A stretch of 64,000 bases of DNA from Spirochaetales bacterium (lineage in GTDB: Bacteria > Spirochaetota > Spirochaetia > UBA9216). Location of the stretch: contig JAEKNX010000006.1 of assembly GCA_016839055.1 (NCBI GenBank), positions 124,001-188,000 on the forward strand, given 5' to 3'. A program made the position numbers and the translations under genes. Of the stretch, positions 5,433-51,039 are shown piece by piece (position 1 is the first letter of the stretch; the number at the start of each line of letters is the position of its first letter). The notes below the pieces were generated by a model, which ran no database searches, had not been told where the DNA came from, and saw only the letters and a list, made by a program, of their open reading frames with translations.

Positions 5433-6364
5433 TGGAATTTGTATTGAAAAAATTTATGTTTAGTATTTTTTATGTCGTTCTCCTTTTTCTTTGTTTATAT
5501 CCCTTTGTGATATTTGTTTGTGGAAATTTGTTAAAGAATTACAACACTAATATCCTGTATCGAGATACTCCAACTGCTGATTTTTTAATATCTAGATTAC
5601 ATGAAGTAAAAGAAGTGCGAGATGTCGATATTTTATTTTTAGGTTCTTCTCATGCATATCGCGGATTTGATCCGCGTAACTTTCCTGAATATAAAATATT
5701 TAATTTAGCATCCTCTTCTCAGACAGAAATACAAACACGCTTTTTATTGGACAGTTATTTAGATCAATTAAACCCAAAAATTGTAGTCTACGAAGTGTTT
5801 CCGGAATTATTAAAAAATGATGGTGTTGAATCCGCGGTTCGGTTTTTATCCTTTGAAAAGCTAAGTAGTGGTATAATTCTCATGGCTCTTAGAACTCTAG
5901 ACATTAGAGTCTTAAACACTCTTATTTATAAGTTTATGGCTAAAATATTAAATAAAGATTCAAATATTTCTGAAACGCAGATTAAAAAGAATCAAAAATA
6001 TATCCCTGGTGGGTATGTTGAAAGAGAGATTTCATTCGGGGTGAAGGAGGATTTCTCTGAATATGAAATTGATTTGAAAACTAACCAATTCAGACACTTT
6101 AAAAAAAATATTAAACTATTGAAACAGAGAGATATTCCAGTGGTTTTGGTATTCGCCCCAATAATTGAAAACCGCTACAATCGTTATTTAAATATTATTC
6201 TGTTTAATCAAGCTATGTCAGAAATTACGACATATATCAATTTTAATGATATTATGAATTTAGATGATAATATTGATTTTTACGATTCTCATCATTTGAA
6301 TCAAAATGGTGTTAATAAATTTAATAAGAAATTGCTAATTAAAATTAAGGAATTAGAGAAATAA
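5432..6364 (+). CDS. SGNH/AlgX-AlgJ-like partner of the MBOAT acyltransferase
   Basis: The 310-residue protein has one N-terminal membrane anchor (residues 8-30) and a periplasmic domain. A GDSL-like block LFLGSSHAYRGFDP near residue 72 could supply the nucleophilic Ser, and YDSHHLNQNG near residue 288 resembles the Asp-x-x-His block V of SGNH hydrolases. Such proteins pair with MBOAT proteins, as AlgJ/AlgX do with AlgI and DltD with DltB, and complete transfer of the acyl group to the glycan. It overlaps both neighbours by one base and shares the AT-rich composition of the MBOAT gene. I assign the superfamily, not an exact orthologue. Confidence 0.7.
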   Translation: MEFVLKKFMFSIFYVVLLFLCLYPFVIFVCGNLLKNYNTNILYRDTPTADFLISRLHEVKEVRDVDILFLGSSHAYRGFDPRNFPEYKIFNLASSSQTEIQTRFLLDSYLDQLNPKIVVYEVFPELLKNDGVESAVRFLSFEKLSSGIILMALRTLDIRVLNTLIYKFMAKILNKDSNISETQIKKNQKYIPGGYVEREISFGVKEDFSEYEIDLKTNQFRHFKKNIKLLKQRDIPVVLVFAPIIENRYNRYLNIILFNQAMSEITTYINFNDIMNLDDNIDFYDSHHLNQNGVNKFNKKLLIKIKELEK

Positions 6365-7479
6365 TGAAAATATTGATAACGGGTTCCGAAGGATTTATCG
6401 GAAAAAATCTGATTGTTCGTTTAAAACAGTACGAAAAATTTGAACTGTATACGTATGATATCAATGATACTGAAGAATCACTAATAAATGCACTTAAAGA
6501 TGTTGATCTTATTTATCATCTAGCCGGAGTAAACAGACCGGAAAAAGTGGAAGAATTTTACCAGGGAAACAGCAATCTGACAGAATTTATTGCCGGGCAG
6601 CTTATAGCAAATAATAAAAATACACCGGTAATCCTCTCTTCAACTATTCAGGCTCAAAGCGATAATGACTACGGGAAAAGCAAGAAGCTTGCTGAGAACG
6701 TCTTATTAGATTATATAAGACAAGGCGGGCAGGCTTATATTTACCGCTTATCAAATGTTTTCGGTAAATGGTGCCGGCCTAATTATAATTCAGTTGTTGC
6801 TACATTCTGCTATAATATCGCGAATGATCTTCCAATTAAAATCAATGATCCTCAAGCTGTAGTTACACTGAATTATATTGATGACATTGTCGACGAGTTT
6901 CTCCTTTATACCGAGGATCCGATTTCTAAATTAAAGCTCAACCAGAATCCGCTTACAATAGAAAAATCATATTCGACTACGCTTGCCGATCTTGCAGAAA
7001 GTCTCGAAGCATTCAAAACAGTAAGAAATACAAGAATACTGCCTGATTTAAATGATGATTATTTAAAAAAGTTGTATTCAACTTATCTTTCGTATGTTCC
7101 TTTTAAAGAACGTGAATGCAAGGCTGATCTGAAAACAGACGAGAGGGGAAATCTTTTTGAACTGATAAAATCTCCGCATTCCGGTCAAATTTTCGTTTCA
7201 AAGACTAAACCGGGTATAACGAGGGGGAATCATTACCATCATACAAAGGTGGAGAAGTTCTGTGTTATCTCCGGAGAAGCTTCTGTTAAACTCAGAAAAA
7301 TAGACGGCTCTGATGTTGAAGAATATATCGTCAGCGGAGATAAACCTTCTATTATCGATATTCCCCCGGGATACACCCACAATATTACAAATACAGGCTC
7401 ATCTGAATTAATCACACTGTTCTGGGCTAATGAGATGTTCGATCAGGTACAGCCAGACACTTATTTTGAGGAAGTATAA
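6364..7479 (+). CDS. fnlB (capF): UDP-L-FucNAc pathway reductase with C-terminal cupin
   Basis: The 371-residue bifunctional enzyme has an N-terminal SDR domain, with TGSEGFIGKNL at residues 7-17 and a short YGKSK active-site block near residue 101. From about residue 245 it has a cupin, with the metal-binding run GNHYHHTKVEKF near residue 287. In CapF-type enzymes the cupin epimerises the FnlA product at C3 and the SDR domain reduces it to UDP-2-acetamido-2,6-dideoxy-L-talose. Both domains look complete. The gene overlaps fnlC by one base. Confidence 0.92.
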   Translation: MKILITGSEGFIGKNLIVRLKQYEKFELYTYDINDTEESLINALKDVDLIYHLAGVNRPEKVEEFYQGNSNLTEFIAGQLIANNKNTPVILSSTIQAQSDNDYGKSKKLAENVLLDYIRQGGQAYIYRLSNVFGKWCRPNYNSVVATFCYNIANDLPIKINDPQAVVTLNYIDDIVDEFLLYTEDPISKLKLNQNPLTIEKSYSTTLADLAESLEAFKTVRNTRILPDLNDDYLKKLYSTYLSYVPFKERECKADLKTDERGNLFELIKSPHSGQIFVSKTKPGITRGNHYHHTKVEKFCVISGEASVKLRKIDGSDVEEYIVSGDKPSIIDIPPGYTHNITNTGSSELITLFWANEMFDQVQPDTYFEEV

Positions 7480-35974: not shown

Positions 35975-36021
35975 ATCCTCTTAATCGCTGCTGTGTGTAG
36001 CTTTATATGAATCCGTGGCCA
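35975..36021 (+). repeat. Dispersed intergenic repeat, copy 1
   Basis: This stretch resembles the ATCCTCTTAATC...CCGTGGCC core of the 127-bp tandem repeat at 38371-38964. It begins ATCCTCTTAATCGCTGCTGTG and ends ATCCGTGGCCA. It lies between rfbB and the GT2 gene and codes for nothing visible. Confidence 0.6.
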
Positions 36022-38370: not shown

Positions 38371-38964
38371 AAGAGAGCGGAGCTTTAAGAATAAGTTCCG
38401 TCAATCCAAAATCCTCTTAATCTCTACAGTGCGATACCTAATATGCGTCCGTGGCCGCTATTCTTAAAAGTAGCCGTAGGCAACAAAAAGACTTTTAGAG
38501 AGAGCGGAGCTTTAAGAATAAGTTCCGTCAATCCAAAATCCTCTTAATCTCTACAGTGCGATACCCAATAAGCATCCGTGGCCGCTATTCTTAAAAGTAG
38601 CCGTAGGCAATAAAAAGACTTTTAGAGAGAGCGAAGCTTTAAGAATTAAGTTCCGTCAATCCAAAATCCTCTTAATCTCTACTGTGCGATACCCAATAAG
38701 CATCCGTGGCCGCTATTCTTAAAAGTAGCCGTAGGCAACAAAAAGACTTTTAGAGAGAGCGGAGCTTTAAGAATAAGTTCCGTCAATCCAAAATCCTCTT
38801 AATCTCTACAGTGCGATACCCAATAAGCATCCGTGGCCGCTATTCTTAAAAGTAGCTGTAGGCAACAAAAAGACTTTTAGAGAGAGCGGAGCTTTAAGAA
38901 TAAGTCCCGTCAATCCAAAATCCTCTTAATCTCTACTGTGCGATACCCAATAAGCATTCGTGGC
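38371..38964 (+). repeat. Tandem repeat, about 4.6 copies of a 127-bp unit
   Basis: The landmark GCGGAGC (GCGAAGC in the third unit) recurs at 38377, 38504, 38631, 38759 and 38886, so the period is 127, 127, 128 and 127. The extra base in one unit is an inserted T in AAGAATTAAG. Units are nearly identical, differing at a few bases. The last one stops about 79 bases in, at CGTGGC. One part of the unit (ATCCTCTTAATC to CATCCGTGGCC) is shared with single intergenic copies elsewhere in the window. All three forward frames carry stops in each unit, so it is probably non-coding. Confidence 0.92.
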
Positions 38965-46479: not shown

Positions 46480-46866
46480 TTAAATAAAAGTCTCTGGAGT
46501 TACATGATAGAAATCAGCGAGTTTCCTAATATGATTCAAGTTCATTTCTCTCTTACCAGAAAGGAGTTCACTGATGATAGACTGGGATGCCACTTCTTTT
46601 AAGTCTGACTGTGTATGTCCATGCTGTTCCATCAGGTAGGCCAGCATGGACCCTGCCGTAGGCTTCGCCATTGGGTATACAGTTTCTTCATACTTTACGA
46701 TCTGCTGGGTGAGGTAGTCTATCACTGGCTCCAGTGTAGTATCCCCTGCCTCAAATCGATCTGTAAGCTCTTCTAAATACGCAGTTGCCCTATCATTCTC
46801 GCTTTCCGTGTGAATCTGTAGGGTGTTTAGAAACTCCCCTACTGTGTGTTCGATTGCTTCACTCAT
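46480..46866 (-). CDS. higA: HigA-type antitoxin with HTH domain
   Basis: The 128-residue protein has an N-terminal helical arm and a C-terminal XRE-type HTH. The HTH runs from MLAYLMEQHGHTQSDLKEVA (near residue 73) through SQSIISELLSGKREMNLNHIRKLADFYHV. In this HigA group the HTH is followed by a short tail (TPETFI). Its start overlaps the toxin stop by 4 bases. It should repress the operon through the operator at 47186-47237. Confidence 0.88.
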   Translation of the reverse strand: MSEAIEHTVGEFLNTLQIHTESENDRATAYLEELTDRFEAGDTTLEPVIDYLTQQIVKYEETVYPMAKPTAGSMLAYLMEQHGHTQSDLKEVASQSIISELLSGKREMNLNHIRKLADFYHVTPETFI

Positions 46867-47180
46867 TTTTTCCTCCCGGCTTTCTTGCCCCGGCTCTTAA
46901 CATATTTTTTCGTGTATTCGCCATGTGTCAAAAACTCTTTTACAAAGACTGTCTTTCCCCAAGTTATACGGACAATCAGTCGAAAGCTTTTACCGTTTAT
47001 GTCGAAACACATATAGTCGGTTCCTGTGACAGGGTCTGCGGTAGGCTCAATCTTCCGCAAGGCTTCCAGGGTAAGAAAAGTATTTTCCTTCATGTGCTTA
47101 TGCCAGTTCAGTAACCTTTCCTCAGCTACAGGGTGTTTAAGGTAAGCAGCTTTTAGATGTTTCAAAGTTATTACGTTCAT
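46863..47180 (-). CDS. higB: HigB-type mRNA interferase toxin
   Basis: I choose the ATG at 47180 (105 residues); an in-frame ATG at 47195 overlaps the -10 element and cannot be the start of the transcript's coding region. NVITLKHLKAAYLKHPVAEERLLNWHKHM is the usual N-terminus of HigB_toxin proteins. DYMCFDINGKSFRLIVRITW near residue 55 and the C-terminal EFLTHGEYTKKY follow. The toxin gene comes first, as is usual for higBA. Confidence 0.9.
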   Translation of the reverse strand: MNVITLKHLKAAYLKHPVAEERLLNWHKHMKENTFLTLEALRKIEPTADPVTGTDYMCFDINGKSFRLIVRITWGKTVFVKEFLTHGEYTKKYVKSRGKKAGRKK

Positions 47181-47185
47181 AAAGG

Positions 47186-47214
47186 AATATAGCATATTGC
47201 GATAGTCATGTCAA
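47186..47214 (-). promoter_or_regulatory. Promoter of higBA
   Basis: On the minus strand, TTGACA (47214-47209) and TATATT (47191-47186) are separated by 17 bases, close to the sigma-70 consensus. The higB ATG starts 6 bases after the -10 element, at the expected transcription start. This suggests a leaderless mRNA. Confidence 0.85.
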
Positions 47215-47486: not shown

Positions 47487-48665
47487 TTATAAGCTGATTA
47501 TCCCTGAAAGGGGTTCTAATAAAGGATTAATCATTACAGAAGTCTCAGTTTGGAAGACGCCCTTCTCCGGAACTCGGCACGTACAGATTCCTTTAAAATC
47601 AGCGGTACCAATTGAGGCAGCGGCTTTTTTTATATTAGTTCTGCCTGGACGCTCGGCGAATTTTGCTTCAATAAGAATTACCTCTTCAGTTTTTTCTATC
47701 AAAAAATCAACTTCCACTTGATTATGGTCTCTATAGAAAAATAAATTCCTCTCTGATGAGATCCCGTAGATTCTTATTAGTTCATTAAAGACGAAATTCT
47801 CCCATACTGCGCCTGAGTGGTGGTTGGCTGACAGTTGGTCGATATTTTCGATGTTCAAAAGTCTGCATAACAGCCCTTGATCATTGAAATATAGTTTCGG
47901 CGTCTTCGTCAGGCGTTTAGATATATTCCTGAACCAGGGTTCAAGAAGGGTTATTATCCCGGAACGGACGAGGGTATTAAGCCAGGACTTAGCAGTGTTT
48001 GGACTGATTCCAGTATCCCGGGCCATTTCAGTAAAGTTTACAAGTGCGCCTGTGCGAACAGCACAGGCACGCAGAAAGCGATGAAAATCACGCAGATTAG
48101 GTGTTTGAATTATGCTTCGGAGATCCTTTTCCAGATAAGTCGTTATATAGTCATCAAGGTATAACTGAATATTAATTCCCGGTATAGCCCATGTTTCTGG
48201 AAACCCGCCTTTCCAGAGAATCTCCTGTATATTATCAGGTTTGAAATAATCTCGTAGTTCGTTCGTCCCCATGGTATTCAGTTCAAGAAGAGATATTCTT
48301 CCTGCAAGAGACTCTCTGGCAGATTCAAGTAGAACAAATTTCTGGCTTCCGGTGAGAATCCACCTCGCTGGTATAACTCTGTCTTTATCAATAATTATCT
48401 TGAGCTCACGAAAAAGTTCCGGTACATATTGAACTTCATCAAGAATGATCCGCTCTTCTGTAAATGAGTTAAGAAAAGCTGACGGATTATTTAATGCCGT
48501 TTCGCTATTCTGATAATGATCAAAAGTAATATATCTCGCATCGGGAAATAATTTTTGTAGAAGAGCGCTCTTACCAGATTGTCTGATTCCAGTGAGAAGC
48601 AGAACCGGACGGCTGTTTACCTGATTGAGGATAGTCTCGGATATTGTTCTGTAAAACCATTTCAT
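47487..48665 (-). CDS. AAA-type ATPase with DUF4143 C-terminal domain
   Basis: The ATG at 48665 gives 392 residues; an ATG at 48677 overlaps the -10 element. Features are Walker A LLTGIRQSGKSALL near residue 23, Walker B ERIILDEVQYVPELFREL near residue 71, and the sensor WILTGSQKF near residue 101. A winged-helix-like region follows near residue 205. The DUF4143 part has a PD-(D/E)XK-like core (VDFLIEKTEEVILIEAKF) near residue 323. Such ATPases are common beside mobile and toxin-antitoxin genes, but their function is not established. Confidence 0.88.
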   Translation of the reverse strand: MKWFYRTISETILNQVNSRPVLLLTGIRQSGKSALLQKLFPDARYITFDHYQNSETALNNPSAFLNSFTEERIILDEVQYVPELFRELKIIIDKDRVIPARWILTGSQKFVLLESARESLAGRISLLELNTMGTNELRDYFKPDNIQEILWKGGFPETWAIPGINIQLYLDDYITTYLEKDLRSIIQTPNLRDFHRFLRACAVRTGALVNFTEMARDTGISPNTAKSWLNTLVRSGIITLLEPWFRNISKRLTKTPKLYFNDQGLLCRLLNIENIDQLSANHHSGAVWENFVFNELIRIYGISSERNLFFYRDHNQVEVDFLIEKTEEVILIEAKFAERPGRTNIKKAAASIGTADFKGICTCRVPEKGVFQTETSVMINPLLEPLSGIISL

Positions 48666-48675
48666 GATATTATGC

Positions 48676-48704
48676 ATTATAATTGCGGATTATCCTAAGA
48701 TCAA
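48676..48704 (-). promoter_or_regulatory. Promoter of the DUF4143 ATPase gene
   Basis: On the minus strand TTGATC (48704-48699) and TATAAT (48681-48676) have a 17-base spacer. The ATG at 48665 follows the -10 element after 10 bases, so the leader would be only a few bases long. Confidence 0.75.
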
Positions 48705-48720
48705 GTGCCTAATAATGATC

Positions 48721-48749
48721 TTGACGCAAATATTCCACCGTATTAGAGT
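48721..48749 (+). promoter_or_regulatory. Promoter of the decayed MNT/HEPN copy
   Basis: TTGACG at 48721-48726 and TAGAGT at 48744-48749 are spaced by 17 bases. The same pair with the same spacing precedes the intact MNT gene at 50064-50092. It may now drive the HipA-like gene. Confidence 0.55.
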
Positions 48750-48767
48750 TAATTAAAGGAGTTAAGG

Positions 48768-48935
48768 TTGAGATTGCAGGAAAATGAGAAACTGGCAATC
48801 AAGGAAAGCTGCATTAAGATATTCAGCGTGGGTAAAATATACCTCTTCGGAAGCCGGGTTGATGATGACAGCAGAATAATAGAGCAGGAAGCTTTGAAAG
48901 AAGGAATCCTGCTATGGCTAAAGAAATACGCATAA
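48768..48935 (+). pseudogene. Decayed MNT nucleotidyltransferase antitoxin (internal deletion)
   Basis: This 55-codon frame (TTG start) is a close copy of the MNT gene at 50111. It keeps RLQENEK and KIYLFGSRVDDD, then jumps to SRIIEQEALKEGILL. Compared with the intact copy, 138 bases (46 codons, equivalent to 50213-50350) are gone, in frame. The lost part includes the GGDIDL metal-binding motif, so it cannot be active. The intact stop TGA is changed to TGG, so the frame runs on to a TAA at 48933-48935. Confidence 0.85.
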
Positions 48936-49915
48936 TGCCTGAGCCAACGTTGTCCCCAAAGCAAAACACAACTGAAGGCTATTATACAAAAAAAGCTGCC
49001 TCGGCACTATTTAATGGATATCATCCTGTTGTTTCTCTTGCATTTTCGAGGAGAGATTTTTTTATCGAAGGTCCGAAATATGTTGAAGGAATGTCAATAT
49101 CGGGTGTTCAACAGAAGTTGTCTCTTGTTTTAAATAAAAATAATGAATTAGAGATTGTATCAATCGGCGGGGAGTATATTCTAAAACCTTCTCCAGAATC
49201 ATTCCCTTTTGCGTCCGAGAATGAGCAATGTGCTATGGCCTTAAGCCGGTTAGCAGGAATAAATACGGCTGCATCAGCTATCGTGAAATTCTCTACCGGT
49301 GAAAATGCCTATATAACAAGAAGATATGACAGGATGGAAGGACGTAAACTGCATCAGGAAGATCTATCTCAGGGATTTAATATTCCCAGTACTGAGAAGT
49401 ATTCGAAGAGCTATGAAGAGGCTTTACTGCTTGTACATGAAATGTCAGGAGGAAAACTTTCAGTTGTCAGAGATCTTCTTAACCGAATAGTTTTCGCTTA
49501 TTTAATTGGAAATGATGATATGCATCTTAAGAATATAAGCCTGATGAAGACGGATAATAATCGAACAATTTATTATGATTCATTAACACCAAACTATGAT
49601 CAATTATTTGCTCAATCTTTTGAGAATAAATTGGTAATTGGATTTCTCGTTCTTGATTTACTCAAGGATGAAAATGATGGCATCTTTACAAAGATGTATG
49701 AAAAATATGGATTCTACACAGGTTCTGATTTTCTTCTTCTTGGGAGAAGGGCCGGACTTCCTGATCCGGCAATAAATAGCATTTTTAATAATTATTTTTC
49801 AAAAGAACAAGAGATGCTCAGCATGATTAATAGAAGTTTTATGCCGGATGATATGAAAGTGCGGGCAACTTCTAAGATCAAGGACAGATTAAAAGCAATA
49901 AAAATAATTAAATAA
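48914..49915 (+). CDS. HipA-like Ser/Thr kinase toxin with a chimeric N-terminus
   Basis: The 333-residue protein has the HipA/HipT kinase core: MSISGVQQKLSLVL near residue 57, GGEYILKPSPESFPF near residue 83, YITRRYDRM near residue 132, the catalytic GNDDMHLKNISLM near residue 199, and DSLTPNYDQLF. The first residues MAKEIR come from the start of a HepT-like gene (compare 50395), and the next dozen from a translated copy of the sequence found after that gene (50887-50914). The usual HipA N-terminal segment is missing. No HipB is adjacent. Function is uncertain. Confidence 0.78.
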   Translation: MAKEIRIMPEPTLSPKQNTTEGYYTKKAASALFNGYHPVVSLAFSRRDFFIEGPKYVEGMSISGVQQKLSLVLNKNNELEIVSIGGEYILKPSPESFPFASENEQCAMALSRLAGINTAASAIVKFSTGENAYITRRYDRMEGRKLHQEDLSQGFNIPSTEKYSKSYEEALLLVHEMSGGKLSVVRDLLNRIVFAYLIGNDDMHLKNISLMKTDNNRTIYYDSLTPNYDQLFAQSFENKLVIGFLVLDLLKDENDGIFTKMYEKYGFYTGSDFLLLGRRAGLPDPAINSIFNNYFSKEQEMLSMINRSFMPDDMKVRATSKIKDRLKAIKIIK

Positions 49916-50063
49916 TACAGATATCCCCAAAGCAAAACCTGATAGAAAATCAAAGCCTTTAGCAAAATCAAAGCCTCCCGGCCCAATAATCCCCATCCTC
50001 CAAAATCTCTACCAGCCCAGCCTCATAAACATCCGCGGTTAAAAAACTCCCCGGCAGCGCATC
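49916..50063. other. Non-coding stretch with dispersed repeat motifs
   Basis: It contains TCCCCAAAGCAAAAC (49924-49938), also found at about 48953 and 50896. It also holds a short relative of the dispersed repeat (ATCTCTACC to ATCCGCGG, 50005-50040). No gene is visible. Confidence 0.5.
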
Positions 50064-50092
50064 TTGACGACAACAACCTCCTGTATTAGAGT
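50064..50092 (+). promoter_or_regulatory. Promoter of the MNT/HEPN pair
   Basis: TTGACG at 50064-50069 and TAGAGT at 50087-50092 have a 17-base spacer. The TTG start at 50111 follows an AAGGGGGCAGGG site. Confidence 0.6.
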
Positions 50093-50110
50093 TATTCAAA
50101 GGGGGCAGGG

Positions 50111-50398
50111 TTGAGACTGCAGGAAAATGAGAAACAGGCAATAAAAGAAAGCTTCTTAAAGATTTTCAGCCCGGGGAAAATTTATCTCTTCGGGAGCCGT
50201 GTTGATGATGACGAAAAAGGCGGCGATATAGATCTTTTTATAGAAACAGCGGATCTTGATCATCTGAGAGAGAAGAAAATTGATTTTCTTGTAGAACTGA
50301 AATCTCGCATAGGAGATCAGAAGATAGATCTCGTTATTTCAAAGGATGAGAGCAGAATAATTGAGCAGGAAGCTTTGAAAGAAGGAATCTTGCTATGA
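50111..50398 (+). CDS. MNT-domain nucleotidyltransferase antitoxin (MntA-like)
   Basis: The 95-residue protein starts at a TTG. It has the minimal nucleotidyltransferase motif YLFGSRVDDDEKGGDIDLFIE (residues 25-44), with Gly-Ser and the Asp-x-Asp pair. MntA proteins AMPylate their HEPN partner to silence it. Its stop overlaps the HEPN gene by 4 bases. A damaged second copy lies 1.3 kb upstream. Confidence 0.9.
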   Translation: MRLQENEKQAIKESFLKIFSPGKIYLFGSRVDDDEKGGDIDLFIETADLDHLREKKIDFLVELKSRIGDQKIDLVISKDESRIIEQEALKEGILL

Positions 50399-50877
50399 CT
50401 AAAGAAATACGCAATACTTTCAAAGAGAAAATTTATGAATGTGACAAACATGTCGAACGAATAGAGACAGCTAAGTCATATTTGAACGAAATTTTTCCAT
50501 TGACAATAGATGTTTATAACAATATCGATGCTGTTAAATCCAGCTTCATTGATCAATTGATATTCAGATTCTCCAAGCTGCAGGATACCATAGGCGAATC
50601 ATTATTCCCCGCTGTTCTTATTTTAGCAGAAGAGGATGTTAAAAGAAAAACCTTTATCGATATCCTTAACAGATTGGAAGAGCTCGATCTTGTTGAACGG
50701 ACAAACTGGCTGAAGCTGAGAGAAACCAGAAACGAAATAGCTCACGAGTATTCTCAAAATACTGATGAAGTTGTCGAGAGCATAAATGATGTCTTTGAAA
50801 AGAGCAGCGAGACCATTAGAATTTACAGAAACCTCAAGGCCTTCTGTAAGAACAAATTCGACTTAGAGATGTCTTAG
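50395..50877 (+). CDS. HEPN-domain toxin (HepT-like)
   Basis: The 160-residue helical protein has the HEPN RNase motif R-x4-H as RNEIAHEY near residue 111 (within LRETRNEIAHEYS). The Tyr near this motif is the AMPylation target position in MNT/HepT systems, as far as the family is known. HepT proteins cleave RNA when not modified. It overlaps the MNT gene and lacks only a predicted tail. Confidence 0.88.
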   Translation: MTKEIRNTFKEKIYECDKHVERIETAKSYLNEIFPLTIDVYNNIDAVKSSFIDQLIFRFSKLQDTIGESLFPAVLILAEEDVKRKTFIDILNRLEELDLVERTNWLKLRETRNEIAHEYSQNTDEVVESINDVFEKSSETIRIYRNLKAFCKNKFDLEMS

Positions 50878-50969
50878 AGTCTGAGGCCAACGTTGTCCCC
50901 AAAGCAAAACACAATAGAAAAGTCTGGCCACAAATATAATCAAAGCCCCGGAGCACAAAAAAATTCTTA

Positions 50970-51016
50970 ATCCTCTTCGTCTCTACCGTGCGCCGCCCAA
51001 TATCCATCCGTGGCCA
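50970..51016 (+). repeat. Dispersed intergenic repeat, last copy
   Basis: The sequence runs from ATCCTCTTCGTCTCTACCGTG to CATCCGTGGCCA and matches the repeated core at 38371-38964. It lies between the HEPN gene and thrC. Confidence 0.65.
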
Positions 51017-51039
51017 ATAGCACCTTGTCTCCGAAGCCA

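Follow-up and report, generated by a model that had tools for sequence, protein, structure and literature searches.

The analysed window is a 64,000-nucleotide stretch of a Spirochaetales bacterium genome (contig JAEKNX010000006.1). It carries an intact MNT/HEPN (type VII) toxin-antitoxin module at 50061-50914 and, at 48718-48971, a partial copy of that module from which a HipA-like kinase gene takes its start. The original prediction, which was made from the letters alone, had described two related copies at these positions, and its coordinates hold both in a repeat-finding search and in a base-level alignment of the copies. Three direct repeats connect them. The first pairs 48718-48869 with 50061-50212 (81%, spacing 1343), the second 48864-48932 with 50345-50413 (94%, spacing 1481) and the third 48943-48976 with 50886-50919 (94%, spacing 1943), so that the spacing grows by 138 base pairs (bp) and then by 462 bp, or 154 codons. 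When a 286-base query was run against the 5.0-Mb genome, strong matches, far beyond chance, were returned at this locus only.

The left copy retains the promoter-like region and the first 33 codons of MNT (48718-48866) and, up to 48931, the end of MNT and the first six codons of HEPN. Between the two retained parts of MNT lies a 138-bp in-frame deletion, bounded by two GATGA direct repeats, which takes away the catalytic DxD; no GS..DxD is found in the remnant. The stop codon of MNT, TGA in the intact copy (CTATGAC), reads TGG in the left one (CTATGGC), and the remnant open reading frame (ORF) runs on to a TAA that shares a base with an ATG in frame with the kinase ORF (TAATG, 48933-48937). 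The left MNT is thus broken in the way first described. A net 462 bp of HEPN is gone, leaving MAKEIR where the intact copy has MTKEIR. With neither the MNT catalytic motif nor a HEPN toxin, the left copy can no longer be counted as a type VII module. MAKEIR is followed by 29 bases that match the sequence downstream of the module exactly, and then by the kinase frame; the whole ORF begins MAKEIRIMPEPTLSPKQNTTEGYY. The borrowed start proposed for the HipA-like gene is real. Two in-frame kinase starts are available, at 48914 and 48935, and from the sequence both appear to be positioned for translational coupling. The promoter hexamers are unchanged between copies although 14/50 surrounding bases differ, and the number of promoter-like matches that a consensus scan returns for the region is near chance.

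Table 1. Features of the locus, in window coordinates.
Feature	Coordinates	Strand	Evidence
Promoter-like site of the left copy, TTGACG-17-TAGAGT	48721..48749	+	Consensus scan; hexamers are those of the intact module
MNT antitoxin remnant, 55 residues (N-terminal 33 plus C-terminal 15 MNT codons)	48768..48935	+	Alignment, ORF, motif check
MAKEIR, the six codons that remain of HEPN and open the chimeric hipT ORF	48914..48931	+	ORF, alignment
Chimeric hipT-like kinase ORF, 333 residues, without hipB and hipS	48914..49915	+	ORF, Pfam, relatives, fold
T1, the left tail copy, which agrees with 50886-50914 at 29/29 bases and is read in frame as ...PTLSPKQNT	48943..48971	+	Repeat search, comparison
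T2, the right tail copy, immediately behind hipT; a diverged version of the sequence downstream of the module	49924..50039	+	Alignment and shuffles; 15-mer
Promoter-like site of the intact module	50064..50092	+	Consensus scan
Intact MNT (MntA-like nucleotidyltransferase), 95 residues, GS-X9-D-x-D	50111..50398	+	Pfam Polbeta 1.7e-10, NTP_transf_2 5.7e-7; motif
Intact HEPN toxin (HepT-like), 160 residues, RX4HXY (RNEIAHEY)	50395..50877	+	Weak NTase_sub_bind / HI0074 matches, below cut-off; motif; gene order
Tail of the intact module, T3; distal part (about 50955-51017) in a dispersed intergenic repeat family	50886..51013	+	Alignment, repeat search

Such an arrangement could arise in assembly, if unrelated pieces were joined at short repeats, and this is a draft genome of 43 contigs with paralogous copies lying within 2 kb of each other. 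However, the copies share no exact match longer than 29 bases, which is little to mislead an assembler, and each carries differences of its own; the reading frame stays open across all junctions, and the contig is 309 kb long. We consider an artefact very improbable.

The kinase is a HipT of the tripartite HipBST family. It matches Pfam HipA_C at 9e-37, its best solved relatives by sequence are E. coli HipT (7ab3/7ab4) and then Legionella HipT, and its predicted fold matches 7ab4_C with E 1.2e-22 and a template modeling (TM) score of 0.83. It consists of a HipA-like core kinase without N-subdomain 1, for which HipT is the best match, and the alignment contains the S-x-S of the Gly-rich loop (S-I-S, within GMSISGVQQK), GNDDMHLKN and TPNYD. 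The HipT proteins of known HipBST systems (E. coli O127:H6, PDB 7ab3-7ab5; Legionella 7wcf/8ezr) thus share with it sequence family, fold, S-I-S loop, and catalytic and Mg-binding residues. The window protein keeps all but two of the 64 columns that are invariant in 13 relatives, and one of the two exceptions is the Cys that went with the native N-terminus; the kinase core is intact.

At its N-terminus the protein differs from known HipT. The HipT sequence runs from about residue 22 on, equivalent to native residue 13 of the relative L036, with ~12 native codons gone; in place of the first residues of the mini-domain stand residues encoded by HEPN codons and by non-coding DNA that is now read through. 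In the AlphaFold prediction residues 1-23 have a pLDDT below 50, while most of the core is of high confidence. Residues 1-10 of L036, with its native start, have a mean pLDDT of 92. An ordered N-terminal mini-domain is therefore not seen in the predicted window protein, and the new 22-residue N-terminus is predicted to be disordered, in contrast to the ordered native one. HipS neutralises HipT, and the published structures leave the significance of this mini-domain (residues 1-41) unknown (PMC10627512).

A scan of genomes yielded 32 relatives of the kinase. The three closest intact ones, from spirochaetes and with 59-62% identity over the alignment, each stand third in a hipB-hipS-hipT operon whose genes overlap. 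By tblastn, hipS and hipB lie directly upstream of hipT, in operon order, in all 13 relatives checked (11 of them independent, as the queries came from L036 and L037), and L089 likewise has both upstream. The native starts of these relatives read M-x-C-[RK]-[IL]-[ST]-L with small variations. No relative in the scan matched the query, with its MAKEIRIM pattern, from residue 1; native MAKEIR-type starts, which by its own terms would have refuted the original prediction, did not turn up. In the window neither hipB nor hipS stands upstream of hipT, and there is no HipBST operon. The host genome, 97% complete, has no Couple_hipA (HipS) domain, although control genomes (E. coli and others) were positive, and a protein search of it found no HipS-like protein. 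Because the relatives all have hipS and hipB upstream and a native start, the window hipT has lost both partner genes and about 12 codons of its own; by gene content, it is an orphan toxin. The HipT clade has been reported solely as hipBST operons (PMC8262856). The monocistronic HipH (YjjJ) and the small core-kinase families HipG/I/J/M (PMC8262856) are also Hip kinases without N-subdomain 1, and YjjJ likewise has no adjacent antitoxin gene, but they form separate clades, whereas the orphan state seen here is a derived loss inside the HipT clade.

HipBST modules seem to decay repeatedly in the class. In a 395-genome sample of the class, a close relative of the kinase occurs in four other genomes, one of which has an internal stop and a truncated hipS. 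A HipBST relic lies in another spirochaete (L090, reverse strand, 5495-6492 in reverse-complement coordinates; the same place as L040 and L010). There hipB is intact; hipS breaks off after about 30 codons and passes directly into hipT at codon ~117, with a TAA inside. C-terminal hipT fragments are present in other spirochaetes (L015, L035 and L031), one of them in the host's family (G006).

What follows hipT bears on how it came to lie here. A 15-mer core of the module's downstream sequence, TCCCCAAAGCAAAAC, has three occurrences in the whole genome, all at this locus, and the third begins 8 bases past the hipT stop. The stretch 49924-50039, which did not figure in the original prediction, aligns with 50896-51013 at a score of 71, where 500 shuffles reached no more than 46. 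Over the 14 bases that flank the core, T1 agrees with T3 at 14/14 and T2 with T3 at 4/14. Since a diverged tail copy follows hipT and T1 is identical to T3, hipT sits where HEPN once stood, between the old MNT start and the old tail of an old tandem copy. An insertion could also leave such an outline: a HipBST operon entering the tail of the left module would have duplicated TCCCCAAAGCAAAAC at both ends, and hipB and hipS would later have been lost together with HEPN. Direct copies of the 15-mer do flank hipT, with the only other copy in the tail of the intact module. As halves of a single tail, however, T1 and T2 should be equally old, which the 14/14 and 4/14 agreement of their flanks with T3 contradicts, and the ends show no gene for a transposase or integrase. 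We regard such an insertion as distinctly unlikely.

The two copies do not appear to be of one age throughout. Between the retained MNT starts there are 10 synonymous changes at ~18 sites and 5 non-synonymous changes at ~78 sites (p = 7e-6), or a dN of 0.07 and a dS of 0.88; by these values the duplication is old, and both copies were under selection as MNT for a long time before the break in the left one. The promoter and MNT start differ at 29/149 sites, and the MNT end and left tail at 4/95 (p = 5e-4). Together with a T1 that matches T3 and not T2, this gives no support to a single, uniformly aged duplication. The left copy is a mosaic in which old parts, namely the promoter, MNT start and right tail, stand beside an apparently recent HEPN start and left tail.

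The original prediction had the left copy decay by two deletions, and both are real and in frame. In its simplest form, one tandem MNT/HEPN duplication suffered these two internal deletions, the 138-bp one between its GATGA repeats, and the HEPN start came by chance to be in frame with a downstream HipA-like gene. Two deletions do not suffice, as a further junction removed hipB, hipS and the first ~12 codons of hipT, and this history leaves unexplained that loss, the presence of T2 after hipT, the identity of T1 to T3 and not to T2, and the uneven divergence. We therefore think it unlikely.

The reading that we favour, and think probable, is that hipT took over the HEPN position in one half of an old tandem pair and is now an orphan relic, not a new toxin-antitoxin system. 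The order of events, the expression and the attenuation that we infer are as follows. An old tandem pair of type VII modules would have stood in the variable region beside thrC. The HEPN slot of its left copy would have gone to the terminal gene of a HipBST operon: hipT, lacking hipB, hipS and its own first ~12 codons, would have been linked to the first six codons of HEPN by a short stretch of sequence from downstream of the module. The left MNT was cut down to a catalytically dead remnant of 55 residues. The MNT end, HEPN start and left tail look recently copied from the intact right-hand module, either by gene conversion followed by deletion or by templated repair with short switches; the data fit both routes. 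Transcription would start from the retained MNT/HEPN promoter, and the MNT remnant and hipT may be translationally coupled through the HEPN-type ribosome site and the TAATG overlap. The product would be an orphan HipT-type kinase with a broken N-terminal mini-domain, presumably tolerated without HipS by being weakly expressed, attenuated or inactive.

Several points weigh against this reading. The kinase keeps an open frame of 1 kb and all of its catalytic residues, which could be a sign of continuing selection and not of a relic. The MNT end is more conserved than the MNT start in the closest outgroups too, so part of the contrast in divergence may be constraint. This weakens the uneven divergence as proof of gene conversion, and it is the tail comparison that carries the argument. 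The dating of the mosaic depends on short stretches, and neither the order of events nor the assembly has an independent control from a same-species or sister genome carrying the locus.

The replacement of one toxin system by another, as was originally proposed, finds no support at the locus. An intact MNT/HEPN module remains next door, and the slot holds a toxin without either antitoxin, which is no system. The locus is debris of two systems and not a succession: one toxin kinase without antitoxins, behind a borrowed start. A working hybrid, in which a HipT-type kinase with a type VII promoter and start is restrained by a factor other than HipS (for example the 55-residue MNT remnant, the neighbouring intact MntA through AMP transfer, or self-phosphorylation of S-I-S), seems to us quite improbable. 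The locus is probably a well-preserved accident of toxin-antitoxin turnover, unlikely to be a new working system. As such it catches the turnover in the act, since a genome lacking HipS has kept a HipT that should be harmful in its absence, with the catalytic core intact. It also offers natural tests of the role of the HipT N-terminal mini-domain and of how a cell survives when antitoxin loss precedes toxin loss.

The right-hand module resembles class I HepT/MntA (HEPN/MNT, type VII) systems, with an MNT bearing GS..DxD upstream of, and overlapping, a HEPN gene with RX4HXY, the motif described for HepT toxins (PMC7641770). The spacing in MNT is GSX9DXD and not GSX10DXD, and the HEPN protein matches known families weakly. 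The left copy keeps the promoter and translation start of such a system. Comparable MNT-HEPN pairs are found across the class, and spirochaete relatives have the two genes in the same order.

Between conserved genes and thrC lies a variable region, whose genes have a G+C content of 0.35-0.44, against 0.51-0.53 for thrC and the adjoining aspartokinase gene. A genome of the same genus (G003) has an AbiE-like pair there instead. No direct ancestor of the locus was found in same-genus genomes, where thrC is kept and the neighbouring region is replaced or the contig ends. A hot spot for the gain and loss of toxin-antitoxin genes would be a natural setting for the locus. In the same-genus genome the variable site next to thrC (L087, 11748-13229) holds what, judged from sequence, looks like an AbiEi/AbiEii toxin-antitoxin pair. 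On the reverse strand of the window, 46480-47195 encodes a HigB-like toxin (PF09907) and an HTH antitoxin-like (HigA-like) gene, and an AAA_14/DUF4143 ATPase gene (47487-48677) lies directly upstream of the left copy.

An integron-like attC/cassette array was considered for the tail copies and ruled out, as the genome contains the shared 15-mer at three places only and the distal tail belongs to a dispersed intergenic repeat. Matches of 19 bases in two distant spirochaetes are due to chance; they fall within an ApbE-like-looking coding frame, with no other similarity. The dispersed family ends in ATCCGTGGCC and has about 50 matches in the genome, many of them in contigs C17, C25, C30, C39 and C42. 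Its sites in the window are at 35975-36021, at about 50955-51017 and at 38372-38964, where 4.7 copies of a 127-bp unit, 96% alike, stand in tandem.
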